A stretch of DNA of 64,000 bases from Tridacna crocea (lineage: Eukaryota > Mollusca > Bivalvia > Cardiida > Cardiidae), in contig OX031063.1 in the NCBI GenBank assembly GCA_943736015.1, positions 33,882,172-33,946,171 on the forward strand. The letters run 5' to 3'. Under the pieces are notes generated by a model. That model was not told the DNA's origin, ran no database searches, and saw nothing but the letters and a program-made list of their open reading frames with translations. A program made the translations under genes and the position numbers. Below, piece after piece: positions 600-63,900 of this stretch (positions within the stretch are counted from its first letter, which is position 1; each line of letters starts with the position of its first letter).

Positions 600-1011
600 T
601 CTTTATTTTGAAAACGCAGTACTGTACTGCAGAAGAGGGCTTTTAAAAACATTTTGGGAAAAGGAGGAAATGCTGGTTACCTGTATTTTCTCCTTGTCAC
701 AAAATGTTTGCTACCGTTTCAATGGCAGGTTTCGTTTAACCCACAGTTCTTGATTTTTTAGTTGCAAACTTAATGCTTTCAATTAACTCTTTACCACACA
801 AGAAAATTTTAGACTGGTCCAAATTGAAAGCATTTGCAGACGACAAAATAAAGGTGATTGAAAAATTGAAATTTGTTCTGGGAAGAGTAGAAAACACTAT
901 AGGAAAAGGAGAAAATGCTGGTTACCAGCATTTTCTCCTTTTCCTACAGTGTTTTCAAAAGGCTTCTTTCCCAGGGGCTTCAAAAGTAGGGATTGTGTGG
1001 TAATGGGTTAA
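600..1011 (-). mobile_element. Eroded MITE followed by a good B-A copy (783-1011)
   Basis: 600-782 is a weathered copy with a damaged core (655-710). The adjacent copy 783-1011 is intact with TTAA at both ends, B arm left, core with central GGTTACC and near-complete self-complementarity (one arm GGGA changed to AGGA, matched by TCCT on the other). Confidence 0.85.
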
Positions 1012-1800
1012 AGAAATTAGACCAGGCTAACAATTTTGTCACATGGTAAAGAGTCAAATTCTATTGGTAAAGTGTTATATTCTATATTTAGTTACAAATG
1101 ATGTAATAATGGGAACTTAGATTATGGCCAAATACATTGTTTTAGGATGTTCATTACTAAAGTTATGTCTTGATGGGAAAATTTTGTACGCATTTTTTTA
1201 CTCATCCATCATAATTTTACATCCTGAAGCCTCTATTACATGTATATCAATTTAACTTTTTCTCAAAGCCCCCTGACAAGAACCAGTTTCCAGTAGTAAG
1301 AGGTTACTGATTCAAGTCCCAGGTTTGGGTAATTTTTTTCCATTTTGATAGTAATTGCACCAGAATTCATCTCTCGCCACTGATTACTGTTTGGACAACA
1401 GTCGCCTGTGCAAGTGACCAGGAATTTCCGACATGTATTAATGGTTGCTGAACACCAAAAATGGTGCTAAACAAGGAGATTCTAGCTCTACCATTTGTTT
1501 TTATACTTCATTAATGATATAAATGAAAACTTTGAACAAAACAATTATTCAAGCTAAACGGTGAAAATTTATTCATACTGTTTTTTGCACATGGAGCAGT
1601 CCTATTCGCTCATTCACCCTCAGTCTTACAATCACTCCTAAATAAGTAACAAAACTATTGTCAATCTTGTGGGTTGAAAATCAATAGGAACAAAACAAAA
1701 ATAAAGAATAAAGATTTTTGAATTAGGATGACACTCAAAGTATGATTCAGGTGTTTACGTAACTTCATTTTTACCTCGCAATTTTTCATCTAGATTAACC
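1012..1800. other. Non-coding stretch with possible SINE fragment
   Basis: No exon seen. 1267-1485 has a box B-like GATTCAAGTCCC followed by a SINE-like body (CCTGTGCAAGTGACCAGGAA). It may be a 5'-truncated SINE, but without a second copy in the window this is weak. Confidence 0.35.
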
Positions 1801-1960
1801 TTAGGAAGAAGGTCTTTGAAAACTTTGTTGTTAAACAGCATTTTCTCCTTTTCCCACAATATTTTCCAACCTATCGATGATAAATCCAATCATATGAGCC
1901 TCATTTTACTTGTAGTCTGCAATTAATGCTTTCAATTTAGACAAGTCTGAATTCTTCTGG
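1800..1960 (+). mobile_element. MITE right half, cut by inverted-repeat element
   Basis: Remnant core (cagcattttctccttttccc) and B arm ending CAATTTAGACAAGTCTGAA. The expected TTTGGTAAAGAGTTAA tip is missing; a 194-bp inverted-repeat element begins at 1961. Confidence 0.65.
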
Positions 1961-2154
1961 GTCCATATTCACCAACCATTCTTAAGAACGTTCTTTGTCT
2001 TATTCTTCAAGATTTTCTGACAGTGAAAGTAACCGAACTTCTGATTGGCTAAACCATATGGTTTAGCCAATCAGAAGTTTGGTTACTTTCACACTGACGA
2101 AATTCTGAAGACTAAGACTAAGAATGTTCTTGAGAATGGTTGGTGAATATGGAC
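1961..2154. mobile_element. 194-bp inverted-repeat element
   Basis: Starts GTCCATATTCACCAACCATT and ends with its reverse complement. Its centre is a perfect hairpin around AACCATATGGTT, with arms CTTCTGATTGGCTAAACCAT. Exactly the same length as the copy at 51331-51524. Confidence 0.85.
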
Positions 2155-2160
2155 CCAGGT

Positions 2161-2342
2161 CTGGCATTATCTCCCGCTAGATGGAATGCATTCTACAAAT
2201 ACTCATCAATCTAATTTGGGCATACCCAGGGTACAGAACTGGACTACTTTTCTACGTGATAACCGTTACTTTGAATTTCAAACTGAAATAAACGTTTACT
2301 CAACAAAAAGGTACCTGGTGCAATTCATTCAGCTATGATCAG
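2161..2342 (+). repeat. Dispersed repeat (inverted partner at 16852-17042)
   Basis: Shares blocks with the reverse complement of 16852-17042: CTAGATGG, ATTCTACAAAT, GTTACTTTGAATTTC, TTTACTCAA and ACCTGGTGC. About 75 percent similar by eye. No terminal repeats noticed. Confidence 0.7.
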
Positions 2343-2621
2343 CAGTGTAGAGAAATCTGGAGCTGAAACAGGCCTTATTTCTCCTCAAACGTATTGATAA
2401 AAGCCATTTTCTCCATTGCTACTGTACAGTGCATATTATTTACATAAAAAGCCCCCCAAGCCCGCCCCCCCCTCCCCAGTATCGGGGAGAGTGATGCGTT
2501 ATATGAGACAGGTCAAATCTTCGAAAAAATATGACATGCGCATACAATATCTGGTCTGGTACAGAGCTTGTACAGTGGTAATACAACTGAAAGCAAACAC
2601 AGGTCAACTGTTTACTATAAA

Positions 2622-2782
2622 TTAAAATCTTAGACTAGTCTAAATCGAAAGCAATGTGACTCAAAAAATGAACTTTTTCCTGGTAAGGGTTACCAGCATA
2701 AATTTCTCCTTTTCCCACAAGGTTTTCAAAAGGCTTCTTTCTCAGACTCGTAAAACCCCGGGATTGTTTGGTAAAGAGTTAA
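2622..2782 (-). mobile_element. MITE, left core half deleted
   Basis: TTAA at both ends. B arm GACTAGTCTAAATCGAAAGC, then only one core half (ttctccttttcccacaaggt), then A arm and TTTGGTAAAGAGTTAA. Confidence 0.75.
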
Positions 2783-3498
2783 AACACTGACCTGCATAGT
2801 TTTTCACTGGCCTTCACATGATTACAAGTTCAAAAGGTAAAAGGCAGAATTTTTGATAATTTTCAGGCTCTATGATTTGAATTATTGATGATTATTTTCA
2901 TCATCTCTTTGATATTTTCAAGGGATCATTCTCAACATGCAAAGGTAACCCAGTTACAATGATTGATTGGTTGTGATTTCACATGTCTAATTTTAACTCT
3001 TTTTACGAAACATTATCCTATAGTAGTAATGCACCTTAGGAAAGATTATCATTGAAATATTGTGGGAAAAGAAGAAAATGCTGGAAACCAGGCTAATCAG
3101 AGATGGCACTTTACATCTACTTTTGTTCTTCAGTAGACTTGCACAAGACTGAAAAATACATGAAAGCGGAGAGTGTTGTTTGCATGCACTGTCAGACTGT
3201 CCAGATTGATCTGAAACAACACTTTACGCATCTGTGTGAATGCCTCTTTCTTGTGTGGCGGTTCATATAGTATTATTTGGTGCCAGAAAAGGGTTTACCC
3301 TAATCCAGGTAAATAAGGGAAATGAAACTTTCAAATCTATAGTAAAAACGCAAATTCTGCCATTTCCAAAGAATTTTTTGGGGAAAAATATTTCCCCTTT
3401 AGACAGTCTAGATTCTAGATCAGACTGTATGTTCTGTGCTCTCTGATCTTGGTCGTCCCAGTTGGCAAAATGTCCTTGAGTGGCATCTAGTTACCTAA

Positions 3499-5125
3499 AG
3501 GCCATGTCACACAGCCATTGACGAATAAATTTTGCATGATTTACGCATAAAAATTGAAAAATCTGGATTTGTATGCGGCGTTAATAGAAAAGTTGGTGGT
3601 TATACGAGAAATTTTGACAGATGAATCATGCAATAATGCACAAAAACTATGTATAAACTACGCATGAAACAGGAATAAACTGCGCAAAGAACATGCATAT
3701 CCATGGAAAAGCCAATTTTCTAGAGAATGAAACACACGTAATCACAAAAGAAATTTTGTATGACTTACGCATGATTTCTGTAAAGCATGAATGAATAGCA
3801 CGCGTACAGATTGCTGTTGTTGTAGATGTGCGCATCAGAGGAGGAACCTTTCTCAGAAACACACAAACTTGTAATCGGAGAAGATCTTGGCAAACAATAT
3901 GATACCAAAGAACCCCTTGTAGTTGTAGTATTCTGACCCAGAATCAGGTGGAGCCTTGCATGCTTCCCCTCGAATGGCCCTGATCGTATGGGGAAAGTTC
4001 CAACGCTTGTACCATTCATCAGCCATTTGTCTCTAGCCTTCCCCAGTGGTTGGTGATGTCATCTGCTTGTCAAGGTTCCAAGATGGCCTGACAGACTTCT
4101 CGAACCACCAAGCTGATAGTGTTGTGCGGCACCCTCCATGCATACTGTATGTCCTTATACCTAGCACCAGAGGCAAGGTGGCATACGGTCAGTGCCACTT
4201 TGAGTCCAGGATCAAGGACTGGTTGCCAGTTCATGTTCTGTTTCGTTATTCTTGGGGTAAGCCTCTCCGCAATCATATGCATGACGTTATGGAAGGATCT
4301 TTGATCTTCATTTCTCATCTCCATAATCAATCTTTCGTTGATCCCAAGTTCAAATCTTCTTCCAATCCAAGGCCTTACCCAGGCTAATCTGTATCCTCTC
4401 CCACGCCTTCTTCTTCTCCTCTTGTTCAGGATCTGCTGGACCAGTTGTTTGTTGTGCTACTGAAGGAGGAAGGCAAGAACTTCTCTGCATTTGGGGTTCA
4501 TGGTCTCCTCTCTTGGATGTCATATGACAGAGATGTCACTTCATGGTCGACTTGATGGAGACTGATGCAGCCGTCTGAAATCGGCCAATTTATATACCCT
4601 GTCCCCATACATGTTTCTTGCGTGAAGCATGCGTGATTCTAGCATAAATCTAAAGTACATGTAGTTTATCTGTTTTTATAAATGATCCATGTGTAATGTG
4701 CATAATTCTTAGCGGTATACATAAAATATGAGTGATACATCTGCAATACATGAGTGTTATATCCGTGAAAGGTTCGTTAGGCATGTGGATATACATGGAA
4801 TGATCGTGAAAATTGCCAACTTTGCGTAACAATCTTGTATGTATCTCGCACATATGCGTATGAATTACGCATGAATTACGTAAGAAGTACTGAAAACTAT
4901 GTAAATTATACGTGGATCGAACAGTCGAACACTTTTGTGCAGCTCAAAACCGTTTTCGTGTATGTCCACATAAGCTCACCCTTGATTCCACACGCTGCAC
5001 ACAGAGACAAATGAAATGAGCATGAAAAACATATGAATTATGTATATCGTGCATGTATTGCGTATCTTCGAAATGCCTCAAATTTTATACTTAGTGTATG
5101 CGTAAGTTCTGTGTGACACGGCCAT
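3499..5125 (-). mobile_element. Decayed PIF/Harbinger transposon
   Basis: The ends carry imperfect inverted repeats: GGCCATGTCACACAG at the left and, reverse-complemented, ATGGCCGTGTCACACAG at the right. Both flanks repeat TACGCAT/ACGCATGAATTACG motifs many times, as in elements with subterminal transposase-binding repeats. The minus strand between about 4456 and 3780 holds a broken transposase. No clean target-site duplication was identified. The element is too short for an autonomous copy and lacks the usual Myb-like second gene. Confidence 0.8.
3765..4456 (-). pseudogene. HARBI1-like transposase fragment
   Basis: Read on the minus strand from about 4456 to 4060, one frame gives LAWVRPWIGRRFELGINERL, then DPGLKVALTVCHLASGARYK and VPHNTISLVVREVCQAI, the hallmark N-terminal half of DDE_4/Harbinger transposases. 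A stop follows at about 4055. After a frame shift, 4019-3765 gives EGKHARL and EKGSSSDAHIYNNSNL, matching the family's GAIDGKH and GSxSDAxIFNxS motifs. The first catalytic Asp appears replaced by Glu and the final catalytic Glu region is absent, so it is non-functional. An in-frame stop also lies near 4468, just before the readable segment. Confidence 0.85.
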
Positions 5126-5155
5126 AGGGGTTCAGTTCTTCTTGGTACATGTACT

Positions 5156-5385
5156 TTAACCCATTACCACACAATCCCTACTTTTGACGCCCCTGAAAAA
5201 GGAAGGCTTTAGAAAACATTGTGGGAAAAGGAGAAAATGCTGGTAACCAGCATTTTCTCCTTTTCCCACAATGTTTTCTACCCTTCACTAAACAAATTTC
5301 AAATTTTCAGTCACTTTTATTTTGTCGTCTGCAAATGCTTTCAATTTGGACAAGCCTAAAATATTGTTGTTTGGTAATGAGTTAA
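5156..5385 (+). mobile_element. Palindromic TTAA MITE (archetype, A-B)
   Basis: Type copy of the dominant family. It runs TTAA to TTAA (230 bp). Terminal repeats begin CCCATTACCA (left) and, reverse-complemented, CTCATTACCA (right). The A arm contains CCCTACTTTTGACG and the B arm CTTTCAATTTGGACAAGC. The core 5213-5277 is a perfect 65-nt palindrome (TGTGGGAAAAGGAGAAAATG on one side) broken only by the central A of GGTAACC. TTAA flanks and CCYTTTAC-like tips suggest piggyBac-type mobilisation; no coding capacity. Confidence 0.9.
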
Positions 5386-6106
5386 TCCTGTACGAGATGA
5401 CGGAACTGTAGACTTGCGATACTGAAAACATTTGCAGACAATAAATCCAGTGTGGATCAAAATGATTATGTAGAGTGGAATACATTATGGGAAAAGGAGA
5501 AAATACTGGTAAACAGCTTTACAGCATTTTCTACTTTTTTCCCAATGTTTTCAAAGGTTCTCTTTTTCAGGTTTGTTATGCATGAGACAGTCTTCTAAAG
5601 ATCTAAAGGTTAGGAAATAGAGCTTAGAGATCAATAGTGTGGGTGTAAAATTACAAATAAATCAGTTTGTATGGTCCCACAAATCATTAGGCTGATTAAA
5701 ATTTTATGAATGGAAGATAGAACAAGCTGAAGAAATAAGTTATTTCTTTCACATCATATGTTTTCTTGTCCTAGAGGTAGAAAAACAAGATTTTACTCTT
5801 CATCAGAGTCTGACAATGGAGTAGGGGGGGAGGGGTGTTTTCAAGCAATGTAACATCAAAGAAATACAATTTCTGATTAGCTAAACTAAAACATTGATTG
5901 CAAAAGAAGTTCTACAAATTCTACATATCACTATAGATGATTGTGTCCTTGAAACCCTATAGATACATAATGTATTTACAGACAGAGGGTAAACAGATAC
6001 AGTTAAAAATTGATCATGTGTAGAATCTGGTCAGCTGTGTAAATGCAGATAAAAAAGTCTTGATAAGGTATATGGGATAAAGAAACTGAGGAGATTTAAT
6101 GTCAAT

Positions 6107-6335
6107 TTAACTTGTTACCATACGACATTGTTTTAGGCTTGTCTAAATCGAAAGCATTTGCAGACGACAAAATGAAAGTGACTGAAAATTTGAAATTTGT
6201 TTTATGAAAGGTAGAAAACAGTGAGGGAAAAGGAGAAAATGCTGGTTACCAGCATTTTCTCCTTTTCCCACAATGTATTCTAAAGGTTTCTTTCTAAGGG
6301 TCGTCAAAAGTAGGGATTGTGTGGTCAAGGGTTAA
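6107..6335 (-). mobile_element. MITE, B-A
   Basis: TTAA-bounded, 229 bp, core with GGTTACC centre and nearly perfect arms. Confidence 0.85.
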
Positions 6336-6523
6336 ACAACCACAGTGATGCTTTCAATTAGTCTTCAGAGACTGAAATACATTTCTTATCCATTGTAATC
6401 TCTGAAACCTTGCAACGGTCAGCAGCAATATTTGGCATGAAGGTACAAGAATGATTATAGTTTCATAACGTAAAGATGAAATTGCTAAAAAAAACTAGAT
6501 GAAAGCAAGTAAAGATATATCCT

Positions 6524-6749
6524 TTAACCTCTTACCACACTATCCTGTATGTGTTTTCATGGTCCTTGGAGAAGAGCATTTTGAAACTTTTTTTTTTTGA
6601 AAAGAAGAAAGTGCTGGTAACTGATGTCTTCTCCTTTTCCCACATTGTTTTCTACCTATTCTACAAATACATTAAACCGTTTCAGCTCTTTTCAACTTGT
6701 TGTCTGCAAGTTTTCAATTTGGACATGTCAAAAATTGGTATAGAGTTAA
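6524..6749 (+). mobile_element. MITE, A-B, decayed core
   Basis: TTAA-bounded. The left core half has been overwritten by a T tract (6589-6598); the right half CTTCTCCTTTTCCCACATTG remains. Confidence 0.75.
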
Positions 6750-7205
6750 ATTGTTGATCAAGCCTTGGTGTGTATGGTTTGGTTTCAAAGCTAAAAAAAA
6801 AAATCCCCCACATATAATAAGATTCAAACTTGAAGGGGCAATTAATTGCTCTATCCGTATACTACTGTCACCCTCATATCTAATATAGGGTCATAAGAAG
6901 TAATATATTAAGTCATGTAATTTGTCCAATAATTGGTCAAAATATTCGAGTAATGGCTTTCTTTTCATAAACATAAACATAATTTTTATGCTTCAGTAAG
7001 CAAATAAAGTCTTTTGATTGACTGAGCAAATGTCTTTTCACATTGATAAATCGTGACCACTATAATTTCTTAAATGGAGCGTAAATTTGAATATTTGTAC
7101 AATCTGTTTATGTATTACAGGAGTGGGTGGGTAACTGGCCCTTAGTCAAAGGTGTTAAATAAAAACACCCCATAAAATGTCAGTTTCAACTATATAGTTG
7201 TATAC

Positions 7206-7457
7206 TTGGGTGTGCGTTCGTTTCCCATGGCTGGCCATCTAAAATTACTAATAGTCTTTCGGTTGAGACAGTAAACTGAAGTCCTGTGTGTTGAAGCTGT
7301 ACACCGAGCATGTTAAAGATCCAGGCATAACTTAGGATGGGTTTCGTCATGTATCTGCACTATCCTCCGTAACACTTGAAACTAACAGTCTTCAGGGGGC
7401 ATAGCCCCTAGGGGAAACTGGTGGTGACGATAAATAATAACAAATTCAATCAATCAG
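7206..7457 (+). mobile_element. SINE, 5'-truncated, with target-site duplication
   Basis: Flanked by TAGTTGTATAC at 7195-7205 and 7458-7468. The body contains CATGGCTGGCCATC, AATAGTCTTTCGG and GATAAATAATAAC with an AATCAATC tail, shared with the SINEs at 32817 and 36901. Only the end of the tRNA-like head (box B region) is retained. Confidence 0.85.
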
Positions 7458-7846
7458 TAGTTGTATACATAGACTATGTAGATCAAGAAGTGTTTTTGTA
7501 AGATTCTGGCCAAAATGGCCCTCTCAAGAAATGCAGTGATTCATATTCTATAGTCTATACTTTGACTAGTAACCAGTTGTTAATGTGTTAAGATTTCATT
7601 TTTCAACAAAAAGAATTAAGAACAAAAATAAGAAAAATAGGCAATATATCAGCTCTGCCGAGGTTACTTTACATCATTTCTCTTCAAATTTAGCCACAAA
7701 ATAGTTTCAGTATTTATATACCCTTGTACATCTTATGCCGTATCTTTTTTACTCAATATTAGACTGCATGCTGAGTGTCCTGTCTGCTTAATAATATGGT
7801 CTGTGCTATGTGAAAACTTAAGTCACACATAGCACTGTTTAGGGAT

Positions 7847-8081
7847 TTAACCTATTACCACACAGTCCCAACTTTTGAGACCCTGAGAAAGAAGCCTGTA
7901 GAAAACATTGTGGGGAAAAGGACAAAATGCTGGTTACCAGCATTTTCTTCTTTTCCCACAATGTTTTCTACCCTTCACATAACAAATTTCACAATTTTCA
8001 GTCAGTTTTATTTTGTTGTCAGCGAATGCTTTCGATTTGGACAAGCTTAAAATGTTAAATTATTGTTTGGTAATGAGTTAA
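7847..8081 (+). mobile_element. MITE, A-B
   Basis: TTAA-bounded, core with one extra G on the left (GTGGGGAAAAGG) and TTCTTC for TCTCC on the right. Confidence 0.85.
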
Positions 8082-8770
8082 AGTATCCTAAAGATTATGG
8101 TGATAGCAAATATAATTTTGTACTATTTTAAGGATACCCAGTCATGAAAAAGTTCATGATCTGGATTGGGTTTTTTTGTCATAAAGTCACCAATAATAAT
8201 GTATAATTATGACAACCTCACCTGTATCATTTTCACAATCTATCAAATGAAAATAGCTTGTTTATTGAAGTGTAATGTATGTAATGACCCTGGGGAAGAT
8301 AAATTTGTGAAAAAAGCAGAGAAAATGCTGGTAACTAGTATTTTCTCCTTTCCTATGGTCATATTTACCTTTTCACAGACAGTTGCATAGTCTGGAGTTG
8401 CATTTGTCATTTGGACTAATTCAAAATTCTGTTTTCTGGTCCAGGGTACCTTTGATTTGTTCATAGCAAAACATTGTTTCTCAATTGATGTAAAATAAAT
8501 ATGTTTAAACTAAAATATTGTAATTTAGTCAAAATGACTGAAAATCAACTTTAACTAAGTTTGCTATCGACCATACATTGTTGTACTGGTACATAAAACA
8601 CTCATCTAGGGAATGCTCTAAAAAAAAATTGACTTTCAAAATTTTACAGTAACGTGGTGGCTCTTGGTACAGACACAATCCTTTGACATTCACAGTAAGC
8701 TTAAAAAGGACTTGCCATTGTTTTGTAGGGGAATTGGGGTTGGGATTCAGACTCCCCAAAGAAATACTTT

Positions 8771-9034
8771 TTAATTTTTTTACCACTCAGTCGCAACTTT
8801 TAACGACACTGAGAAAGAAGCCTTTTGAAAACATTGTGGGAAAAGGAGAAAATGCTGGTAACCAGCATTTTCTCCTTTCCCCTGAATGATTTCTTCCCTG
8901 CTGGAAACAAATTTCAATTTTTTGAGTTTCATTTATTTTGTTGTCTGTAAATGCTTTCAATTTGGACAGGGATTTTATATATATGATCTCTGATTTGGAC
9001 CAGTCTAAAGTTTTGTCATTTGGTAAAGAATTAA
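8771..9034 (+). mobile_element. MITE, A-B, with duplicated B tip
   Basis: TTAA-bounded, 264 bp. The extra length is a second partial copy of the B-arm segment: CAATTTGGACAGG is followed by GATTTGGACCAGTC, separated by a short TA repeat. Confidence 0.8.
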
Positions 9035-9413
9035 GAACTTTGTAGATGGGGATTCTTATGTATTTTGAGACCTGTTTTTGAACAAACTAAAAGTGGTGAT
9101 ACTGGACAATACCATTTCTAACTGAAAAACTGTTCCTGCCATAGCAGGATGGGCAGGATGTATTGGAATAGCTATGACAGACTTGTACTAGGAGAGAATC
9201 TATCAAAAAAGATTACCTAAACAATCTATTTATATAATGATAATCGATCACATGTATGCCATTATCAATAAACCAATCATTAGATCATTTAATGACACAA
9301 TTCATCACAGTCAATTATCAGTATATTACATAAACTGTCTTTTCTACCGAAATCAAATGCCCATAAATCCAAAACAGAATTGCATAAAGTCTGACAGGTT
9401 TAATATTGTATAT

Positions 9414-9864
9414 TAGACAACAAGATTTTAGCCTTGTCCAAATTGAATACAGTTGCAGATGACAATTTCAATCTAGATCGAATGCTATAATTGTTCTTTG
9501 ATAGAGAAAAAATTATTGCGGGAATAGGTGAAAATGCTGGTTACCAGCATTTTCTCCTTTACCCACAATTTTTTCACAAGGCTCCTTTCCTTGGGGCATC
9601 AAAACTTGTCACTGTGTGGTAAAGGGTTAGTAACCCTTTATCATATGATAATGTGTTTTCAATACCGGTGGAAAAAGCCTTTTGAAACATTGCGGAAAAA
9701 GAAAATGCTAGTGACCATCATTTTCCTCTCTCTTTTTATGCAATGTTTTCTACCCTTTGAAAGACAGATCTCATTAATGAAATCAAATGCACTTTATGCT
9801 TTACATTTGGACTAAAAAATTGTAAAAGTCTAACAAAATTGTTGTGTGCATGGCGAAGAATTAA
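9414..9864. mobile_element. Two adjoining MITEs
   Basis: 9414-9630 is B-left with a good core (AGGTGAAAATGCTGG) and a GGGTTAG end. 9630-9864 is A-left, more decayed, ending GAATTAAG. They share the junction. Confidence 0.7.
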
Positions 9865-10020
9865 GTCTTTACTTAAAGGTGGGTATTTAGAATTTTTACA
9901 TCTCACCAAATCAAAAAAAATATATATCACTGAAATTCATATGAAAAAATAATACAAATCATCAATAATTAAGATTCATGAAATTACAAAATAAAATTTT
10001 TTTGATGGTATTCCCTTAAA

Positions 10021-10256
10021 AGGCTACGTAGCCACTTAAGATATTTTTAGATTTCGCGCCAAAAATCAATAATGCATTTCGGGAATGCCTAGTGACTGGC
10101 ACGTGACTCATAACACTTTAATTCCATTACATAACAAACATATAATAATTATTTTCCATAAAGTCTTCTTCAAACGGTATGTTTGAAACTTCGTCTGTGT
10201 ATACCTGTTTGTAAATGAGCGAATTGATAATCTAAAAATAGAACGTGTATCCCCTT
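10021..10256. other. Non-repeat stretch with E2F-like site
   Basis: No exon recognised. TTTCGCGCCAAAA (10052-10064) matches the E2F consensus and is followed by CACGTGACTCA (E-box plus AP-1-like, 10101-10111). Might be regulatory or belong to the repeat that begins at 10257. Confidence 0.3.
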
Positions 10257-10366
10257 GGTGTCTACCTGGGCTGTAGTAAATCTCTAATTTCTCGTGTTGT
10301 TGGACGGTGTTCGACTACTGGGGTTTTATGATTGAAAATTAAAAGGCTTTGGGAGTGTAAGGATGA
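10257..10366 (+). repeat. Dispersed repeat copy (partner at 31-146)
   Basis: Inverted relative to the copy at the window start; the two were compared block by block. Confidence 0.7.
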
Positions 10367-10424
10367 TTTTTTTGCATTTTTGTACAATTTTCGTCCCAAG
10401 ACCTGAAGGGCCACCTTTAAAACT

Positions 10425-10605
10425 ACAAAATTTTAGACTTGTCCAAATTGAAAGCATTAAATTGAATATGGCGCAAAAATTAAAACTAAAAACTAAAATT
10501 TGTTTTGGTAAGGGTAGAAAACATTGTAGAAAAAGGAGAAAATACTGGTTACAGCCCAGAGAAAGAAGCCTTCCAAAAGCAGGATGGGAAAATATAAATG
10601 CAACT
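10425..10605 (-). mobile_element. MITE, truncated
   Basis: B arm (TTTTAGACTTGTCCAAATTG) and left core half AGAAAACATTGTAGAAAAAG; the right half and A tip are largely lost after 10560. Confidence 0.65.
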
Positions 10606-10902
10606 AAATACATAAATACAGTCATGACTTGTGAAAACCTTGTGCCACAGGTACAGATAGCTTAAGTTTGTCTCAAAATGATAGTGTCTGACAAAAGGAA
10701 ATGTCATTCAATACAAACATTTATTTCTCCCTTTGCTACAATGTTTCTCAAAAGTCAATTGCTGCAAGACTACAGTAATCTTCTGGCTGCTGTGACTACT
10801 GCAACTACTGCGGGTATGTCTATGTCTGCACAAAGTCGAAGTATTCATTTGGCAGAGGGAGTTTTTGCACTTTTGCTCATGAGTAAACAAAATGTTTTCC
10901 GC

Positions 10903-11747: not shown

Positions 11748-11799
11748 GGCATTTTTAGTGATAAAATGTTTTTAACCATGTATACAAACAATCTTCTGT

Positions 11800-12735: not shown

Positions 12736-12769
12736 TATATATATTTATACCTGTAATGATGATTTCTGT

Positions 12770-54213: not shown

Positions 54214-54220
54214 TTTCGTA

Positions 54221-54345
54221 GGTAACACAACTTCTGATTGGCTAACCATTCTGTTTAGCCAATCAGGAGTTGTGTTACTTACAAATTTAGGAAACGTTGG
54301 AGAATAAGACTTAGAATATTCTCAAGAATGGTTGGTGAATACCAG
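54221..54345. mobile_element. Inverted-repeat element, right two-thirds
   Basis: Keeps the central hairpin (CTTCTGATTGGCTAACC and inverse) and the right end GGTTGGTGAATACCAGC. The left end is missing where the tandem-array element abuts. Confidence 0.8.
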
Positions 54346-54534
54346 CCCTGGTGTTAAACAATTTCAATTTGTAACCATCCCAAATAAGCACACTCGGAAC
54401 ATTGTGAAAACAAAACTTTTTTTTTAATTTACCAACAATTTATGTTTTCTCTCCTTTCAAAGAAATATTCTACTCTTTTGTGTAACGTTTTATTTGTCTT
54501 CTGCAAATAGGTTGAGTTTGGTTTAATCTGCCGA

Positions 54535-54680
54535 GGCCCCATAGCTCAGTCAGTAGCATACAGGACTTGAGAACAGGTGTTGCAGCTTCCATCTCTAGCT
54601 TGGCCAATTTTCTTTTCAAGGACTGATGATAGTCATTACAACAGGACACATTTCTCTTCCCCTGCTGACCATTGTAACAG
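54535..54680 (+). mobile_element. tRNA-derived SINE, degraded
   Basis: CCCATAGCTCAGTCAGTAGC resembles box A; the box B region GCTTCCATCTC is poor. No TSD identified. Confidence 0.5.
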
Positions 54681-56030
54681 TATGAAACAGAAATATACAT
54701 GTATATATTGACATTACTGTACTAAAGATCACAACCTGTAATCACAAAAGGCATTTTTTAACTTAACTTGGCATTTTCTAATAAATGATATTCAATTTAA
54801 GTTTGCATTTATAAAACGGTCTGATTTGAGTAAATGAGTTAAGCTTCATGATGCCTTCTTTATTCCATCAATTTTGGGGAGGGGGATATTATATTGCTGT
54901 CTAAGTAAATTCTAAATGGTTGATAAATAAGGATAAATAAGGATTTATGCAGAAATAATATTTTAACACATTTCTAACGGATCAGAAATTCTATAAATTT
55001 ATGTCTATCTTGAAATTATTTTTTAATAGTTTTATTAGTTTTCAGAAAAGGGGGGCTAATTATTATCTCTTTTGAATTGAGAATATAGAGGTTAAAACTT
55101 TTAGATTTATAATTGATAATTCAAAGATGGAAAAAATGAATCGGTGAAAGTACTACAATAATAGATCTACTCATTTTTAATTATAGCTAATTTTGCAGGA
55201 TGATATTTTAGTGGAAATAGCTGTTTTCCATTACACAGGTCTTACCTTAAGTGTTACAAATATTGTAAGAGATTTTAAGGATAAGTTCTGAATGATTTCA
55301 TCCTCTAGGAATCAATCTATTCCTAACACAATATTGCTCTTCTGTGGGAAATAAATTGGCATGAAACCTGCTCTCCGGCGAATTTAGATCTATTATATCG
55401 CAGGGAAAGATTTTTTTGGAAAAAAATAAAAATCTATAAATACATGAGGGCCTGTTATTCTCCTATCTCTTCTAGTAAAGACCAAAAGCTGTGAATTTTC
55501 AAAAGTGGTGCCTACATAATTAGATCTCGTCATATTCGACGATCAAGTTTCGGAATGAAAATGATCATGTTAATTTTAAGTGCTTCATAAGATTCATGAT
55601 AAAATGTATCAATTAATTACACAAATATACACAGTGGATTAAGTTCGCATTTTTTCGATAAAAAAAAACGTATTTCCCAATTTAAATTTTGGCGGTTGCT
55701 TTGTTTACGAATAAAGGGAGACCACCACCAAGTACACGAATTTAAACGTGTCGAAATGTTTTTGGTGATATCAAGGTATTTGTCAACAGTTATAATATAG
55801 GCATGAAACTATACTTATTTTTGTAACGACTCGTCAATAAGAAAGGAATAAATATTCTTTATACCGATGATCTTGACGATCGTACTGTATACGAGTTGAT
55901 TTCTAAACTTTTAAGTAATATTAAATAATATTCGCCTTTAGATCTAGTTATATTCTGTACACAAAGTAAGTGACGTGATTGCACATGGTGTAGGAAAGAT
56001 AAAAGAATTAACGCGTTTCCTCCTCACCCC
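54681..56030. other. Long stretch without recognised features
   Basis: AT-rich sequence with no MITE, SINE or exon identified. It would be a natural place for weakly conserved CEP89 N-terminal exons or a regulatory region, but nothing supports a specific call. Confidence 0.5.
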
Positions 56031-56031
56031 T

Positions 56032-56261
56032 CAACCCTTTCCCAAACAATCCCTGGTTGTTACGGGTCTGGAATAGTAGCCTTTTGAAAACATTGTGGGA
56101 AAAGGGGAAAATGCTGGTAGCCGGCATTTTCTCCTTTTCCCGTGCAATGTTTTTTACTCTATCATAGACAGAAATCCTCTTTTCAGCAAGAGATGAATTG
56201 TCGTCTGCAAATGCCTTCAATCTGGTCTAGTTCAAAAGTTTGTCGTTAGGGAAAGGGTTGA
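56032..56261 (+). mobile_element. MITE with C-type tips
   Basis: TCAACCCTTTCCCAAAC start and GGGAAAGGGTTGA end (both TTAA mutated). Core has GGTAGCCGGC centre. Confidence 0.8.
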
Positions 56262-57160
56262 TATCCATAACAGCGGTTTCTCCTTTAGGTAAAAAAACAT
56301 AGTCATGAAAGCAATCCTAGAACATGGCACATATTTAAATGTTTTGAAATAACCTTTCCCTTGTAAATTGTTGCTATGCGCAATATTCACGCTTTTGAAA
56401 AAAAAATTTTTTTTGGATAATCAGATTTTGTTCAATATGGGTTACTTCCTAAAGTGTTCTTGAAAAGTACTTGGTCAGTATGCAAGAATTTTTCATTCGT
56501 TTCAATTCCGTAACATGGGCAATATATACCGCAAGTTGAACTACAGTGACGTCGCTAACCGTAAACAAATATGGAGGCAAACGGAAAAAGTTACCCATTC
56601 TTTGTAAACAAAACTAGCAATTAAAACATCAGTCAGACACTCTATTCAGTCGCAAATCGTACACATATAACAGCAAGCTTGAAGAAATGTCATCAGAGGA
56701 AATTTTGTTTTTAAAAGACCAAGGTTGGTAGAAATTGATGCTACTATGAATGATTTGCAACAAGTTCAGACATGGCAAATTTAGTGGGTGGGGATATGGT
56801 AGCCTCAAGAATGACATAATACGGTGATTTGCTGTATATTTGTATATTTACTGTTCGCCATACCAGCTCAAGTTCTTTGTATTTTTTGCAGCAGCAAAGA
56901 TAGAGCACATTACTGACATTGTTTCATTGGTTTAATCTGTATTGCAGCAATCTGCAATTTTCTGTCAGTATCGTACTAAACATGACCAAAGGCAAATAAT
57001 CAAACCTTCCATTACCTGAAGAGCTTGTAGAAGTCGTATATAACATGCAAATCTAGGAAAACAAATTGATGAAATCTATCTTGTGTGGCGGCCATTTTTT
57101 TTTTATTTTCCGCAATGTGAATTACTTGAGTAACAGATAAAATGAACTGTTTTACTTATG
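56262..57160. other. Non-coding stretch with possible promoter
   Basis: No transposon recognised. Contains the CRE-like and YY1-like motifs around 56547-56578. Confidence 0.35.
56540..56600 (+). promoter_or_regulatory. Possible TATA-less promoter upstream of CEP89
   Basis: A CRE-like TGACGTCG (56547-56554) lies 13 bp before AAATATGGAGGC (56567-56578), which resembles a YY1-type AANATGGCGGC element of housekeeping start sites. This is the most promoter-like spot between the two genes, but no first exon can be identified, so the link to CEP89 is inference. Confidence 0.25.
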
Positions 57161-57386
57161 TTAACTCTTTACCACACAAAGAAATTTTAGATTAGCCCAA
57201 TTTGAAAGCATTTGCAGGTGACACAATAAATGTAACTCAAATGATACTTTTTGTCTTAGATAGGGAAGGAAATGTGGGCAAAGGAGAAAATGCTGGAAAC
57301 CAGCATTTTCTCCTTTTCCCATAATGTTTTCAAAAGGGTTCTCTCCCAGGGTCGTTAAAAGTCGGGATTGTGTGGTAAAGAGTTAA
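57161..57386 (-). mobile_element. MITE, B-A
   Basis: TTAA-bounded. Core left half slightly short (ATGTGGGCAAAGGAG), centre GGAAACC. Confidence 0.85.
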
Positions 57387-57622
57387 GAGTGTAAATTAAA
57401 AAAAAAAAATGTACTTCAAACGAAGGATTATGGAATATATGTGCAAGCAACAGGTATTTTCAAATAATAGTTTTATGCTGTATTTGTGAATTTATGAGAG
57501 TTCAAACTTGCACATCAAAATCTGTGCAGAGTTTTTAACTGATTTCTCTTGATTGTCTGTCTACCCAAAGGCAACCAGTCAAAAAGTAACACCACCTTTT
57601 AGGACAGCTATCTGTACTAGGG

Positions 57623-58455
57623 CAGGGTTCGGAATTCCCATATATTTACTCGCAAAATGCAAGCCAGAATTGGAAAATGCGAGTTGAAATTTCAAGCACT
57701 TGCAAAAAAAATGCGAGTGCAAATTATTGAAGAACAGTTACCAAATGTACTAAATTTTATATATGAATAAAAAAAAAAGGGTAATTCTTTTTGTTCTGGA
57801 TAAACATTGGTCATATCGCACTGAGAACACCCTTCGAAGTTCGACGGATGTCGGTAATTTTACATGTCGCCTCCGAATTGTCGTTCGTTACCCGAGATTC
57901 GTGAGTTTCGTCTGCACTCACAGCCGATACTGAGGTTTTGCGTTTTTTTATTCTGAAAAAAAAAACGGTATGCGAAGTCAATCTCTGATTTGAAAAAAAA
58001 ATCATTTGTCAATCTTTCATGAAAAGATAAATTATCATGCACAACTAGCAACAAGAAGCAAGTCGTACGTGGTGGACTCGCTAAACCAGTTACCGGACAC
58101 GCAGATATTCAGATGTTTTTCACGTCCGTTGTTCATTTACAAAATCGTCCACCAGTGTAAGTTTTGTAGAAATTTAACCTCGCATTAGAACAGAAATTCA
58201 ACTGAAATTGAATTGATTGTTAAATGAGAGTTTTAATGTCAATTAACGTTCCTTTCGTGTGGTTGTTGTCTCGGGTTGACAGGTTACGTAATAGAATAGA
58301 ATTGAAGTTTGTACCGGCCATTCGTCCTTTACAAGTGGTAGGCAAGCTCAGAGCTTCAAAAACAAACATGTGAGTCCAGTTTTAATTTTGCAAGTGGAAA
58401 TAAAAGCTACTTGCTAAAATTTGCAAGTGGATAAAAAAATGAAATTCGAACCCTG
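57623..58455. mobile_element. hAT-like non-autonomous element (tentative)
   Basis: Imperfect terminal repeats CAGGGTTCGGAATTCC and, inverted at the right end, CAGGGTTCGAATTTC. The sub-ends share tracts such as GCAAGTGGA and CTCGCAAAATGCAAG. No transposase reading frame and no clear 8-bp duplication. Confidence 0.5.
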
Positions 58456-58819
58456 TAGGGGATATGGTAGCCCCTACCTTCAGTCTGCTCCTTGTTATTT
58501 TCACGTTAATTTTCTTATGACAGTTTGATTTGTGTTTTCCTTTTCTGTGTATTTGCATCAGATGAAATAATCATGGAACTTGAATAGGAATTCTTCTTTG
58601 TAGATTATGTAATGACTGTTGTTTCCAATAACTGCCTCAGTATCAGAAACATGTTGCAATAGTGCATTGAATTGTTTGGTGAAGTGTTAATGAACAAGTA
58701 GTCCTGCAGTTGCGGTATCATTAATAATGCATTTGAAATCTTGAGGTGGGATAGTTCAGTCCTTAGTCTCAAAATTTAAACCTGGTTTATCTTATGATAA
58801 ACTTTAACCAGTTTACTTC

Positions 58820-59052
58820 TTAACTCTTTAGCACACTGTCCCGAATTTTAACGACCCTGAGAAAGAAGCCATTTGAAAACATTATTGGAAAAGGAGAAAA
58901 TGCTGGTAACCAGCATTTTCTTCTTTTCCCACAACGTTTTCTACCCTTCCTAAGACAAATTTCAATTTTTGAGCCATACTTAGGTTGTCGTCTGCAAATT
59001 TATGCTTTCAATTTGTACTGGTCTACAAATTTGTTGTTTGGTAATGAGTTAA
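58820..59052 (+). mobile_element. MITE, A-B, next to CEP89 exon
   Basis: TTAA-bounded, 233 bp. The right TTAA is 35 bp from the exon at 59088. Confidence 0.87.
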
Positions 59053-59087
59053 TCTATATCTTTTTTTCATTTCTTTCTCTATTTAAG

Positions 59088-59155
59088 TGCATAGACTCAG
59101 TCATGAACTCTCCAGGTACAGACAGCAGCATGGTGGTATTCCAGATCCTATAGAG
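59088..59155 (+). CDS. CEP89: CEP89 exon
   Basis: Acceptor tttaag, donor gtaagt. After two bases of a split codon it encodes HRLSHELSRYRQQHGGIPDP then IE. The acceptor uses AAG rather than CAG or TAG. A MITE ends 35 bp upstream. Confidence 0.85.
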
Positions 59156-62100
59156 GTAAGTCAAAAGTAATGGTGAAGAAATATTTATAATATTCAAGCT
59201 GTAATATATTTATTCTGATGTTTCAAATGATCACAGTCAATGTGCCTGTCAAAAAGTTTCGTCTTAGGTCTGTACAAAACAGTCCTTTGTTTATACCATC
59301 CTTACAGCTTTTGAAAACATTGTGACATTAAGAGAAAATGATGGTTAGCAGCATTTTTGATTTTCTAACATTGTTTACTATCATTTCAGAGACAAATCCT
59401 GTCACTAGAGCCACATTCAATTTATTTTCTACAATTACTTCTAATATGGCAGAGTATAGATATTCTATTTGGTGACAGATATTTCATCTTTCACCTGATG
59501 TATGCTTGTTTCGGATGATACCCGAAGAAAAAAAGAGGGTTGATATGAACTGTTTTGAAAAAATAGAGATAATATTTATGATGACACAATGAAATGAAAT
59601 AAGTGAACTTATTTCGAAACTATGATTGTCCAGCTAATTTTCATTAAACATTTTTTCCTTGACAACGAATCATAAAGAAATAAAGAGCAAGAATTGCAAC
59701 AAATCTTCCCAATTTACAGAAAACAATACTTCCTTGTAAAATATTATTATTAATATTAAATGAAATATAAATTTGAAAATATTAAAACAAAAGGAAGAAT
59801 GCTTATTCAGGGTGATTATTCCTTTTGCTACAATGTTTTCAAAACTGATCTGGTTCAAGACAAAAAAAAAAAAAGTACCAGTGGGAGGAGGTACCAGCAT
59901 GAGAAAATACTCATTTAGGATAAAAATGGTTGTGTGCAAAGATATGTTTTACAAATTAATGTTGTAAATCGATATTATTTAATTTTTAGACCGGCTTACA
60001 CACAGATGCTCCACCTGCACCATGGCTAACAGAGAAAAGGTATACACTTAACTTAAATTTACGACTGCAAACAGCACTGTAATCATAATATTAATTCTTT
60101 CATCCAAGCTGTATAATCATACAGTGTACCCGAATGATTAGGATATTACGGTAATAGCTCTAGGTAATTTGTTAATTAGAATGCTTATAACTACACTAGG
60201 TTTACCAGCAGAAATGATCATACCTTTGTCTTACTTAAGGCCTTGATTCCTTGATGAAAAAAAAAACATTTTGAATGTCGAAAGTGAAAGTAAAATATGA
60301 ATGGTTTGCTACACTTTTGGTCTGATAATAAGTTTCTGTACCTTACATTATGAATGTGAGCCTGGGGTTTGTTCATTTTACATTTATAACCCTTAGAAAG
60401 CTTATCTTAATTTTTATCCAGGTCTTTAAGATCAGACTTGCTGTGTGTCACTTAATAGGTAACAAAACTGCACATGGTGCATGAAGTAAAAGAGTGAGAT
60501 ATGTAGAAGTTTGGTTCATCTAGAGCTATTTTTTCAAGGTTCACAATGTTTTGATTTAGGTATGTTACTTCATCAGTAAAATAGCTACCTAGAATATATG
60601 AAAATATATGTGGTCTGAATTTTGCCAGTGATTTAGGTAATCCATTATTATACAGACTTTTAAGATATACAAGTACATAATACTTTCATGGAAAGAAAAA
60701 GATCAGGTTTTTACCAAAATAATTTTAGGATAAAGAGAATCACTTGGAGCTAGTAGCTGCTTTTCCCCTCACAATGTTCTCCAAAACATTCAACCTCAGG
60801 GGCATAAAAATCAAATGTTTAAGTAATAGGTTAAATTAAAACAATGGTAAAATGTCATGTACATATATACATGAATATTTTTTTTTTAAATCATTTTTAG
60901 CTTGTTATCACCACTGCTTGCTGAATATGATGCACAGATTAAAGATCAGCAACAACTTATCATTGCATATGAGGTAAGACAAAGTAATTTTTTGTAACAG
61001 TGATACTTTTATGAAGAACATAATTTTTTGTCTGTACATGTTTTCATTGGGGATATAACTTAATGACATTCCTGGTGCTTGTATTGATGGTGCCATGTGT
61101 GAAAATTTAATATTAAGACCAAAGTCTCAGCTACATACATGTATCAAACATTTTCATTGCAGCAACAAGCAAATACAAGCACTAAGGTAGTTACTACATA
61201 TACATAGAAGAATTTCTTCTTTCTTTTTCATTAATGATGACATTTATTTCTCAAAAAGCTTATGAAAAAGTTATGGTTTCAGTTCTTCACACCCTTTACA
61301 GTATGACATTATTTTAGACTGTTCTAAGTTGAAAGCGATTGCAGACGACAAAATAAACGTAACTCAAAAATTGAGACTTGTTTCAAGTAGGGTAGAAAAC
61401 ATTGTGGGAAAAAGAGAAAATGCTGGTTATCAGCATTTTCTCCTTTTCCCACAATGTTTTCAAAAGGCTTGCATCTCAGGGTCGTTAAAGCAAGGGATTA
61501 TTTGGTAAAGAGTTAAAATTCTACACCAAACAACAAAATTTTAAACTTGACAAATGCAATAGTAGTTGCTGATGTCAAAATGACTTTTCTGAAAGAAATA
61601 GGATTGAAACTTTTCCATGTGAAGGCTAGTGTCTTGCTTGATAGTCTGGAAAACTACAGTTTGATTTGGAAATTAAAATTTTTCATTGTTATTCATTTGT
61701 AAAAAAAGGAGGAGCTCAAAGGATTGAGAAGTGAAGTATCCAGATTAGTTCAAGAGAATGAAAGGTTGGTATATTTTGGGGATATCTTACTTTCAAAAAG
61801 AAAATCTTTCTATTGTGTTTGCAAATTTGCTTGCTTGATTAATTTTTGTTTTCAATGTTTAGTATTTAAAGCCACATCCAAATGTTTTGAAAGTTGAACA
61901 AGAGAATTTATCCCAAGGTAGATTAACATTTGATAAGCATTATGGTCTCTTGCTGCTTGGAAAAACAACAGCAAAAATTCTGTTTCAGTGCTTTTCATTA
62001 AGCTGTAGGTTCTGTTGTAGCAGTCACTGTTATGGTTAACCACATGAAGTATTTTTTTATCATTTTATTTTTTTCAGAAATATTTATTGCTACATGGAAA

Positions 62101-63176
62101 AGACAATAAAAACTCTATATGAAAGGTTGTCATTACTTTTGAATCCTAAGCTTTACTGTATAGTTGTTTATGTGGTATACCACATGATAAAACATTTTTT
62201 GATTTCTCATCTACTTTATTTTTTTAATTGGATGGTAGATTGAATGATAAGCTGAAGAATGCAGTGTACAGCCAGCTCGGGGATAAGGGGGGAGAGATAG
62301 AACAGCCCACAGAACTCATACAGACTGACGAGCAGATGCTACAAAATATGCAGTATCAGATAGACACAGCATTACAGGTAAAGATTTAGTACAGGCCACA
62401 GGATATCCTCGTTTATTTGTTACCCATTACCTCACAATTACAAGTTATAATAAGGATAAGCAGGAAGGCCCTTGAAAACAACGTGAGAAATAGAGAAAAT
62501 GCTGGTAATCAATATTTTCTCCAATTCTCACAATGTTTTCTATCCTATTCGAGACAAAAATCATTCATTGAGCTACATTTAATTTGTCATGTGCAGATGC
62601 TTTCAGTTCAGTCTAGCACAAAATTTTATAGTACATGTATTGTAAAGAGTTAATCCATCGGTGAACATACTTCATTTGAATGTATTAACTCTTTACCAAA
62701 CAATCCAGACTTTTAACACCCCTGCAAAAGAATCCTTTTGAAAACATTGTGGTAATCAGCATTTTCTCCATTTCCAGCAATGTTTCCTACTTTTTCCAAA
62801 ACAAATTTCATTTTTTGAGCAATGTTTATTTTGTCATTGAATTTGGACCAGTCCAAAAATTTGTTGTTTGGTAAAGAATTAAAGTTTTTGCAATTGGTAA
62901 AGGGTTAGCAAAATAACATAAATAACAAACGCTGTTGATGTTATTTGTATTTGTCATCAAAATAGAAACTACAATTACAAAATGGAACATTGATTTTGTT
63001 TCTAATGAGTAATTTTTCTCTTTTTACTCATACAAACTTTAAAAAAGCTATGATTTGCATTTAGATTTTTATTTTCAATTTTTCTATATGAACATTACAT
63101 CTAGGAAAAAGATGCTGCCATAGAGAAATGGCATGAGGCAGATGCCGAGATAGACAGACTTCAAGGACAACTGCAG
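59088..63176 (+). CDS. CEP89: CEP89 (centrosomal protein 89), internal exons
   Basis: Eight exons join in frame into 176 codons: 59088-59155, 59990-60039, 60901-60973, 61163-61186, 61709-61764, 62078-62125, 62239-62377, 63105-63176. CEP89 is a coiled-coil protein of the distal appendages of the mother centriole, needed for ciliogenesis. Recognition rests on order and similarity of blocks: HRLSHELSRYRQQHG resembles human VHRLNVELSRYQ; APWLTEKSLLSPLLAEYDAQ resembles [29 protein letters not shown] resembles VVKENEEL. From 62078 on the similarity fades into acidic, Gln-rich coiled-coil sequence. In human CEP89 about 300 residues precede the first block, so N-terminal exons must lie further left; none is recognised in 46518-59087. 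The gene continues past the right edge. Human sequence is recalled from memory, not aligned. Confidence 0.8.
59270..59480 (+). mobile_element. Worn MITE in CEP89 intron
   Basis: GCTTTTGAAAACATTGTGAC, then a damaged core and a B-arm trace. Confidence 0.55.
59990..60039 (+). CDS. CEP89: CEP89 exon
   Basis: 50 nt encoding TGLHTDAPPAPWLTEK, followed by a split Ser codon. PPAPWL matches the Pro-Pro-Trp-Leu motif of vertebrate CEP89. Acceptor tttttag, donor gtatac. Confidence 0.85.
60901..60973 (+). CDS. CEP89: CEP89 exon
   Basis: Encodes SLLSPLLAEYDAQIKDQQQL then IIAYE, the most diagnostic block (LSPLL-x-x-Y). Acceptor tttttag, donor gtaaga. Confidence 0.88.
61163..61186 (+). CDS. CEP89: CEP89 24-nt microexon
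   Basis: Eight codons, QQANTSTK, between ttgcag and gtagtt, phase 0 both ends. It could be skipped without changing frame, so it may be alternatively spliced. Confidence 0.65.
61288..61516 (-). mobile_element. MITE, B-A
   Basis: Left CCCTTTACAGTATGAC (TTAA lost), right TTAA. Core near perfect, centre GGTTATCAGC. Confidence 0.83.
61709..61764 (+). CDS. CEP89: CEP89 exon
   Basis: Encodes [18 protein letters not shown] and a split Arg codon, with a heptad-like coiled-coil pattern. The acceptor is a run of A followed by AG, with a weak polypyrimidine tract; frame and homology (VVKENEEL-type) favour it. Confidence 0.75.
62078..62125 (+). CDS. CEP89: CEP89 exon
   Basis: Encodes NIYCYMEKTIKTLYE between split Arg codons. 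Acceptor ttttcag, donor gttgtc. Weakly conserved. Confidence 0.7.
62239..62377 (+). CDS. CEP89: CEP89 exon
   Basis: 46 codons after a split Arg: LNDKLKNAVYSQLGDKGGEI, then a Gln/Glu-rich stretch ending QNMQYQIDTALQ. Donor gtaaag. Predicted coiled coil. Confidence 0.82.
62421..62653 (+). mobile_element. MITE, A-B
   Basis: GTTACCCATTACC start, TTAA end. Core GTGAGAAATAGAGAAAATG against AATATTTTCTCCAATTCTCA keeps one matched change. Confidence 0.78.
62685..62882 (+). mobile_element. MITE, left core half lost
   Basis: TTAA-bounded. GAAAACATTGTGG joins GTAATCAGCATTTTCTCC, deleting the left half up to the centre. Confidence 0.8.
63105..63176 (+). CDS. CEP89: CEP89 exon, last in window
   Basis: 24 codons, EKDAAIEKWHEADAEIDRLQ then GQLQ, phase 0 both ends, acceptor tctag, donor gtaaag. 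No later exon is recognised before 64000. Confidence 0.82.
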
Positions 63177-63429
63177 GTAAAGTCATAATCGCCTTATCTT
63201 GCTTGAGATCAAGTAAATCTAATTATAGTGTTCCAGGCTTGTTTTAAGAGAAACCAAATTGGAAGTAAGTCATTGCTATAATCATTTCTGAGGCCTGATG
63301 AAGATCATTGCATCAAGAAGGACTTGTCTCTTCCTGCTGTCATTTACAAGTGGACTTTATGTTAATTAATTTTGACGGAAGGCACTTTCACCTTATTTTG
63401 TTCTTACATTACAAAACCAATTGAGTATT

Positions 63430-63900
63430 TAACCTTTTTAAAAAGGATTTGGAAAATATTATGAGAAAATTAACAAAATGCTGGTAACTAGCATTTTGCC
63501 GTTAACTGCAATGTTTTCTACCCCAACAAAAGAAAACTCAAAAAAGGTAGAAAAATAAAATAAAGAAGAAAAAGATTTTTTTTTTTTTTTCAGTAATATT
63601 TATTTTGTTGCCTGCAAATGCTTTGAATTTAGTTAAGTCTGAAATTTCACCTTTGGTAAGGAGTTAAATGTATTTTTGTGGATGGATGTGTGTACTCACT
63701 TTCTGCCACAACAACAAACTTTCAGACTTCCCCAAATTGATAGTACATGTATCTGCTGATTATAGATATAACCTAAAAGCCTTTTATCAATGAGAGGCTA
63801 GAAAATACTGTGCAAAAAGAAGAAAACATACTGTATCCAATATTTTCTCCTTTTCCACAGTGTTTTCAAAGAACTTCTTCCACAGGATAATTAATACAGG
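63430..63900. mobile_element. Two worn MITEs at right edge
   Basis: 63430-63665 (A-left; core AAAATGCTGGTAACTAGCAT; ends GGTAAGGAGTTAA) and about 63700-63900 (B-left, degraded core). Confidence 0.62.

Follow-up and report, generated by a model that had tools for sequence, protein, structure and literature searches.

The 64,000-nt window analysed here (contig OX031063.1 of the bivalve Tridacna crocea, positions 33882172-33946171, in a host assembly of 1,048,827,098 bp and 31 contigs) holds exon pieces of a lipoxygenase gene and is densely occupied by one family of miniature inverted-repeat transposable elements (MITEs), each built around a long internal palindrome. The palindromic core of this family is less diverged than its flanks, carries more compensated changes than expected by chance and is at the same time a preferred place of deletion. 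Selection for the core is suggested by this combination, since the part of the element most easily lost is also the part best kept.

Copies, architecture and genome-wide abundance

In a repeat search of the window, a 60-nt core string was present in 86 copies at 60% identity or more. The profile built on 32 seed copies gave 128 non-overlapping matches with an expectation value (E) below 1e-3, 119 of them below 1e-5 and 110 below 1e-10, and the reversed-sequence decoy run as a control produced no match better than E=1.1. These matches, three of which are pieces of a subfamily (S2) described below, cover 36.0% of the window, or 36.5% if the three S2 copies are counted in full; they are balanced in orientation (65 on the plus and 63 on the minus strand), and 69 come close to full length (E<1e-10, profile start at most 30, end at least 210). 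The initial annotation, drawn from the letters alone, had recognised the family and its high density, but its figures of about 75 copies and a quarter of the window have to be replaced by those given here.

The consensus is ~229 bp long from TTAA to TTAA, and its ends are inverted copies of TTAA-C-Y-C-W-TTACCA-M-A, with the remaining flank sequence not inverted. An exact TTAA lies within 2 bases at 109 of 153 termini and at both ends of 30 of the 51 elements having both termini; in fixed alignment columns it is present at both ends of 29 of 69 aligned copies, and TTAA begins at 0.8% of window positions. No coding sequence was found in the element. Twenty further open frames gave no Pfam match over the cut-off. 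The TTAA target, short inverted termini, uniform length, lack of detectable coding and occurrence in both orientations bear out the earlier description of a TTAA-bounded MITE of ~230 bp.

The palindrome is off-centre, with arms of ~33-35 nt around a centre base that is unpaired, a point correctly recognised in the initial annotation; it occupies columns 61-131 of the aligned 8-236 and totals ~67-71 bp. The claim that it is often perfect over 65 nt was too strong: of the 106 matches spanning the core, 4 have exact arms of 32 nt or more, 13 of 25 or more and 21 of 20 or more. With at most 3 mismatches allowed, the window contains 38 inverted repeats whose arms reach 30 or more, as many as five of which may belong to other families, and the inner 33-nt palindrome (at most 3 mismatches) is found 47 times versus 0 in 100 dinucleotide shuffles.

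Across the host genome the inner 33-nt palindrome has 180,061 exact copies and its reversed control 0; the 22 exact inner cores of the window amount to about twice the genome density. Two patterns of the exact core were tried in prokaryotic and viral collections and found none. A genome sample of twenty 10-kb stretches, taken from contigs C1-C10 at fixed positions (5 and 20 Mb), contained 169 matches covering 14.8% of it (standard error (SE) 2.4 points), with single stretches ranging from 0 to 36%; by extrapolation the genome would hold 886,000 pieces (SE 146,000), or ~0.9 million. This sample is not inflated, as it holds 25 exact cores where 34 are expected from the whole-genome count. The check for a family of few copies genome-wide, which would have told against its importance, thus had the opposite outcome.

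Divergence from the consensus ranges from 6 to 38% with a median of 17% (153 copies), and dispersed copies differ by 3.9-5% in the closest pairs, leaving out one identical pair that lies 854 bp apart in a single sample stretch (L021: 6368-6601 and 7222-7455) and is probably a local duplication. These values indicate activity that was long-lived or repeated, not one recent burst, so that in the earlier proposal of a recent or repeated burst only the second term survives.

Divergence, compensated changes and deletions in the core

In the 69 window copies, divergence from the consensus is 0.091 in the core against 0.221 and 0.236 in the left and right flanks; in 84 sample copies it is 0.103 against 0.204 and 0.212, with the core less diverged than the left flank in 78/84 and than the right flank in 78/84. 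Because the whole-element profile itself leans on the core, detection was repeated with flanks only. Right-flank detection returned 78 copies, 59 with alignable core and left flank, and left-flank detection 71 copies, 57 of them alignable; the core was less diverged than the opposite flank in 57/59 and 56/57, respectively. The force of these figures is lessened by the training of the flank profiles on copies initially detected through the core, and by the dropped non-alignable rows (19/78 and 14/71), among which there may be copies that have lost the core. In the genome as a whole, a 33-base string taken from a well-kept stretch of the right flank counts 20,755 versus 180,061 for the 32-base core. 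In trees of the 69 copies, terminal branches carry 0.065-0.072 changes per copy and site in the core versus 0.122-0.132 in the flanks, and since 69 of ~0.9 million pieces were sampled, these branches include much unsampled lineage history. An exchange or conversion hotspot at the core was considered and is not supported: linkage between left- and right-flank sites (r2 0.039) equals that within the right flank at equal distance (0.044), r2 being low throughout.

The two arms show an excess of joint, pairing-preserving changes. Forty cores free of gaps, 37 from the 69 S1 copies and 3 from S2, contain 35 doubly changed cells that are still paired; 500 shuffles average 7.4, and sliding the register by 1-3 columns gives no more than 13. 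The 153 copies hold 73 complementary doubles versus 22 expected, distributed over 29 pair/type classes; with slid registers the counts are 12-20 versus 9-13 expected. On the 69-copy trees, internal branches bear 4 compensated changes versus a mean of 0.1-0.3 with permuted right arms (maximum 3, 100 permutations), and terminal branches 9 or 12 versus 4.1-4.6 (maximum 9 or 10). At one pair followed genome-wide, the change from C-G to T-A is seen as 98 doubles and 4,080 singles beside 180,061 intact pairs, and simple arithmetic under independence predicts ~23 doubles.

Subfamily S2, with 3 full copies in the window and 7 in the sample, has termini of the same kind as S1, the same length and another right half, and its consensus core is a perfect 33+1+33 palindrome. 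Identity between the S1 and S2 consensus sequences is 59/68 (87%) in the core, 35/54 (65%) in the left flank and 52/102 (51%) in the right. Of the 9 differences in the core, one is the centre base, and the other 8 lie in the arms, where they make up 4 compensated pairs; the stem sequence has therefore changed and the stem been kept, while the right half was replaced. One candidate for what is conserved could be discarded on the same comparison: each S1 arm contains TGTGGGAA, which we take to resemble the Su(H)/CSL motif, and S2 reads TGTGGCAA in its place, so that such a site is not the feature being kept.

Palindromes are established as a source of breaks and deletions, according to the consulted parts of a review (PMC7999016). 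The 69 window copies have 27 internal deletions of at least 6 columns. The core is affected by 14 of these (p=0.015), in one case just at its margin, and 7 extend across the palindrome centre; of the 15 that remove at least 15 columns, 11 are in the core, which makes up 30% of the length (p=7e-4). Sample deletions have their midpoint in the core in 7/11 cases (p=0.022), or 7/9 after removal of two alignment artefacts, the artefact check having covered the gap at 166-185 and not every other sample deletion. Two deletions in common had hinted at a core-deleted subfamily; on realignment, the 166-185 gap of two sample copies proved to be an artefact.

Individual copies, host gene and other repeats

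The copies and exon pieces singled out are collected in Table 1. Neighbouring matches lie at most 10 bp apart in 29 of 127 cases, and 9 junctions have one TTAA in common. Self-targeting was considered as a cause and rejected: if all TTAA sites were used at random, 36.7 abutting insertions would be expected (95% range 28-45), and as the observed number is no higher, there is no preference for self-insertion.

Table 1. Features of the window, with positions counted from its first base
Feature	Position	Strand	Remarks
MITE family as a whole	126..63913	both	128 profile matches, 36% of window
Full copy	5154..5387	+	perfect palindrome 35+1+35 at 5210-5280
Full copy	14831..15061	-	exact arms of 33
Near-full copy	18156..18369	-	exact arms of 33
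Near-full copy	38161..38372	-	exact arms of 32
Near-full copy	31713..31935	+	exact arms of 31
Top-scoring copy	49730..49963	-	262 bits against the profile
Full copy	780..1013	-	private compensated pair (G-C to A-T) in stem
Copy of small clade S3	25224..25456	-	several stem pairs differ from S1, with compensation
S3-clade copy	40743..40964	-	
S2 copy	348..575	+	termini and palindrome plan as S1, right half different
S2 copy	41392..41620	+	
S2 copy	51889..52116	-	
Two full copies, abutting	26655..27111		one TTAA in common at ~26881
Copy with core deletion	42729..42931	-	30 columns lost over palindrome centre
Copy with core deletion	2603..2785	-	31 columns lost in core
Copy with core deletion	19706..19907	+	19 columns lost over palindrome centre
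Lipoxygenase exon piece	34399..34497	+	aligns to 5-LOX chain residues 355-386
Lipoxygenase exon piece	43926..44090	+	borders approximate; PDB chain residues ~547-602; Pfam Lipoxygenase over cut-off
Lipoxygenase C-terminal exon piece	46398..46514	+	borders approximate; PDB chain residues 653-691

The three lipoxygenase pieces are collinear, the middle one passing the Pfam cut-off and the other two not. The 11.9 kb between the outer pieces is 43.6% MITE, with 28 matches divided 13/15 between the orientations, and no MITE overlaps any of the three exon pieces. Lying between collinear exon pieces, these MITEs make part of the family intronic; the initial annotation had considered the copies as transcribed within introns, and its view is supported for the lipoxygenase span, the part of the window with a gene model. 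The predicted RNA fold of one copy has -89 kcal/mol (z -11.6), the hairpin of one copy being predicted very stable both as RNA and as DNA, and Rfam gave no match in the window at gathering scores.

Other repeats share the window with the family. A second palindromic repeat family with ACTTCTGATTGGCTA arms (2020-2095, 51385-51470 and 54218-54282) has long inverted ends in 2 of 3 copies and no evident likeness to the MITE, and a third hairpin repeat with GTGAACACCATCGGTAATATTTTCACTCGTGGC arms is present as two similar copies with similar flanks (12622-12690 and 30873-30939). A tandem array at 52936-54071 comprises ~6.9 copies of a 166-bp unit, with a 333-bp period as well, and it is here that MITE density is lowest (8% of 52001-56000). 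The tRNA-Ile(TAT)-like sequence at 32825-32897 is perhaps, as we presume, the head of a tRNA-derived short interspersed element. An open frame of 128 aa at 4073-4456 on the minus strand, which gave no Pfam match over the cut-off and no PDB match, we take to resemble the N-terminal part of a Harbinger transposase.

Family type, proposed role of the palindrome, and comparison with known systems

Over the 69 copies the left end reads C (55), C or T (45 and 18), C (57) and T or A (48 and 19), mostly CCCT, and the right end is for the most part CTCT, which departs from the CC[C/T]T hallmark at one base; the termini have CCC[T/A]T or CTC[T/A]T as their first bases. For piggyBac-type elements the consulted parts of two papers give CC[C/T]T as the start, with CCCTT, CCCAT, CCCTC and CACTA among the others reported (PMC10813416, PMC2872659), and for Kolobok and T2 those of a third give the same TTAA target with termini that begin AG or AGGRR (PMC6004289). 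The TTAA target and the CCC[T/A]T starts fit the former, in spite of the mostly CTCT right end, and the Kolobok/T2 starts do not fit; the family is taken to be non-autonomous, with a TTAA target and short inverted ends probably of piggyBac type. That it belongs instead to Kolobok, as a T2-type TTAA MITE, is very unlikely: the target is common to both superfamilies and the right end departs from the piggyBac hallmark, but the AG or AGGRR start is absent, and CCCTT and CCCAT are known piggyBac starts (PMC10813416). The genome holds 118 matches to the piggyBac transposase domain PF13843, some of them fragments, where 0 of 14 control genomes has any, and internal stops are absent in 26 of the first 30 matches listed. 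Several of these loci have identical score and frame length (three of 303.3 bits and 624 aa, four of 298 bits and 492 aa), which suggests recently active autonomous elements.

Taken as a whole, these observations are best explained by a huge, long-lived non-autonomous family of the piggyBac/TTAA kind in which palindromy is favoured in amplifying copies, likeliest as DNA, an explanation in which our confidence somewhat outweighs our doubt. The MITE is presumably moved by piggyBac transposases, inserting at TTAA, and would by this route have reached ~0.9 million pieces and ~15% of the host genome. As the palindrome is least stable within a copy and most constant between lineages, we infer that it is favoured in those copies that amplify; it would most likely act as DNA, raising transposition or copy gain, and could be read as a two-fold symmetric site by a transposase dimer or host factor, or as a hairpin extruded at the replication fork, the intronic RNA hairpin then being a probable by-product. 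We read the copies as decaying near-neutrally after insertion, with the constraint sitting in the amplifying lineages. The bolder proposal, that the palindrome of 67-71 bp, costly through its proneness to deletion and kept by compensated changes, is an amplification signal defined by symmetry and not by sequence that drove the family to ~15% of the genome, is advanced tentatively and with more doubt than conviction.

Several results weigh against the explanation of palindromy as favoured in amplifying copies. The youngest copies show a small core advantage (computed without CpG sites, core 0.026 versus flanks 0.030/0.046 in clade yB and 0.038 versus 0.066/0.080 in clade yA), and within S2 the values are 0.040 versus 0.047/0.075, so that constraint in the source lineages is deduced and not observed. 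Stem-breaking singles exceed compensated changes on internal branches by 44:4, or by 33:4 on the flank-only tree, and lineages have therefore passed on imperfect stems as well; in the 153 copies, 627 single changes face the 73 compensated ones, variation in copy age could explain part of the 98-versus-23 excess, and one uncompensated right-arm change is common to 4/10 S2 copies. On the 5' sides (1.0-1.6 kb) of 22 of the 118 transposase matches, no autonomous element with the MITE termini (TTAACYCWTTACCA) was found: several of these sides have TTAACCC... starts of their own, the clear MITE termini near transposase matches belong to copies that landed nearby, and three partial profile matches beside transposases are weak (E 1e-4 to 0.006; L030, L033 and L043). 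Subterminal palindromes bound by paired C-terminal domains of the transposase dimer in piggyBac and piggyBat offer a likeness, but in the consulted parts of PMC11707139 they measure 19 bp and, imperfectly, ~14 bp, compared with 67-71 bp in an internal position here.

Some of these points would favour a passive palindrome, with the termini alone of importance and a core that looks conserved through a recent common ancestral core, the flanks having been exchanged or diverged. MITEs of this superfamily are generally thought to need little besides their termini, and the dominance of uncompensated changes, internal branches included, together with the small core advantage of young clades agrees with such a history. 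We consider it unlikely all the same, because the linkage values, though of low power, give no sign of flank exchange, because S2 kept its consensus palindrome through 4 compensated pairs beside another right half, and because a passive palindrome, if as prone to deletion as this one, should vanish with time. Homogenisation without selection could also come about within each copy, by mismatch repair of an extruded hairpin that corrects one arm to the other. The spread of compensated changes over many pair/type classes, their excess at one pair genome-wide and the lower number of core than flank changes on terminal branches are consistent with arm-to-arm correction, to which we give a slim chance: if frequent, it would make compensated changes rival single ones, as they do neither among the 153 copies nor at the pair counted genome-wide, and by itself it would not explain why the arms diverge so little from the consensus of the family.

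An RNA-level role, for which the initial annotation had named ADAR, Dicer and small-RNA pathways as possible, and in which intronic hairpins would be edited or diced and selection by host or element would keep the RNA stem, is improbable in our estimate. The very stable predicted fold and the position of copies within lipoxygenase introns speak for it; the lack of Rfam matches in the window and of any strand preference, in the window or in the lipoxygenase span, speaks against it, although a palindrome could act either way round.

MADE1/miR-548-type MITEs resemble the present family in their near-perfect intronic hairpin; unlike it, they are mariner-derived, use a TA target and are palindromic over the whole element. 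T2-MITEs of Xenopus (Kolobok), as presented in the consulted parts of PMC6004289, are likewise abundant, long-lived and directed to TTAA, and differ in termini that read AGGRR where CYCWT is found here. The closest precedent is provided by the CMITEs of the coral Acropora, which in the parts of PMC2872659 consulted already combine TTAA flanks, the CC[C/T]T start of piggyBac type and tandem arrays with an internal region better conserved between families than the termini, the pattern also found here between S1 and S2; their authors suggest that this region acts in transposition. CMITEs are ~100 bp long versus 229 here, their internal region is not described as a palindrome in those parts, and ~1,600 copies are estimated in A. 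millepora versus ~0.9 million pieces in the clam. Kinship with the 60-bp internal sequence of CMITEs was tried and rejected, since 1,151 of 2,000 shuffles attained the local alignment score of S1 and 1,228 of 2,000 that of S2.

In the open-access literature, with subscription papers and Repbase outside the search, no description was found of a TTAA MITE whose long palindromic core is maintained by compensation, nor of any single piggyBac-type MITE near 15% of a genome. At ~0.9 million pieces of one non-autonomous family, the abundance is in our judgement extreme for a MITE, and such a family would shape introns across a 1-Gb animal genome. New here are the core with about half the divergence of its flanks, the excess of compensation, the S1 and S2 consensus stems that differ by compensated pairs alone, and the palindrome as a deletion hotspot. 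The CMITE authors left open why the internal region is kept; in the present family the region kept is a readable palindrome, which evolution has tested twice, through compensated pairs and through loss by deletion, and which a direct assay can now address.

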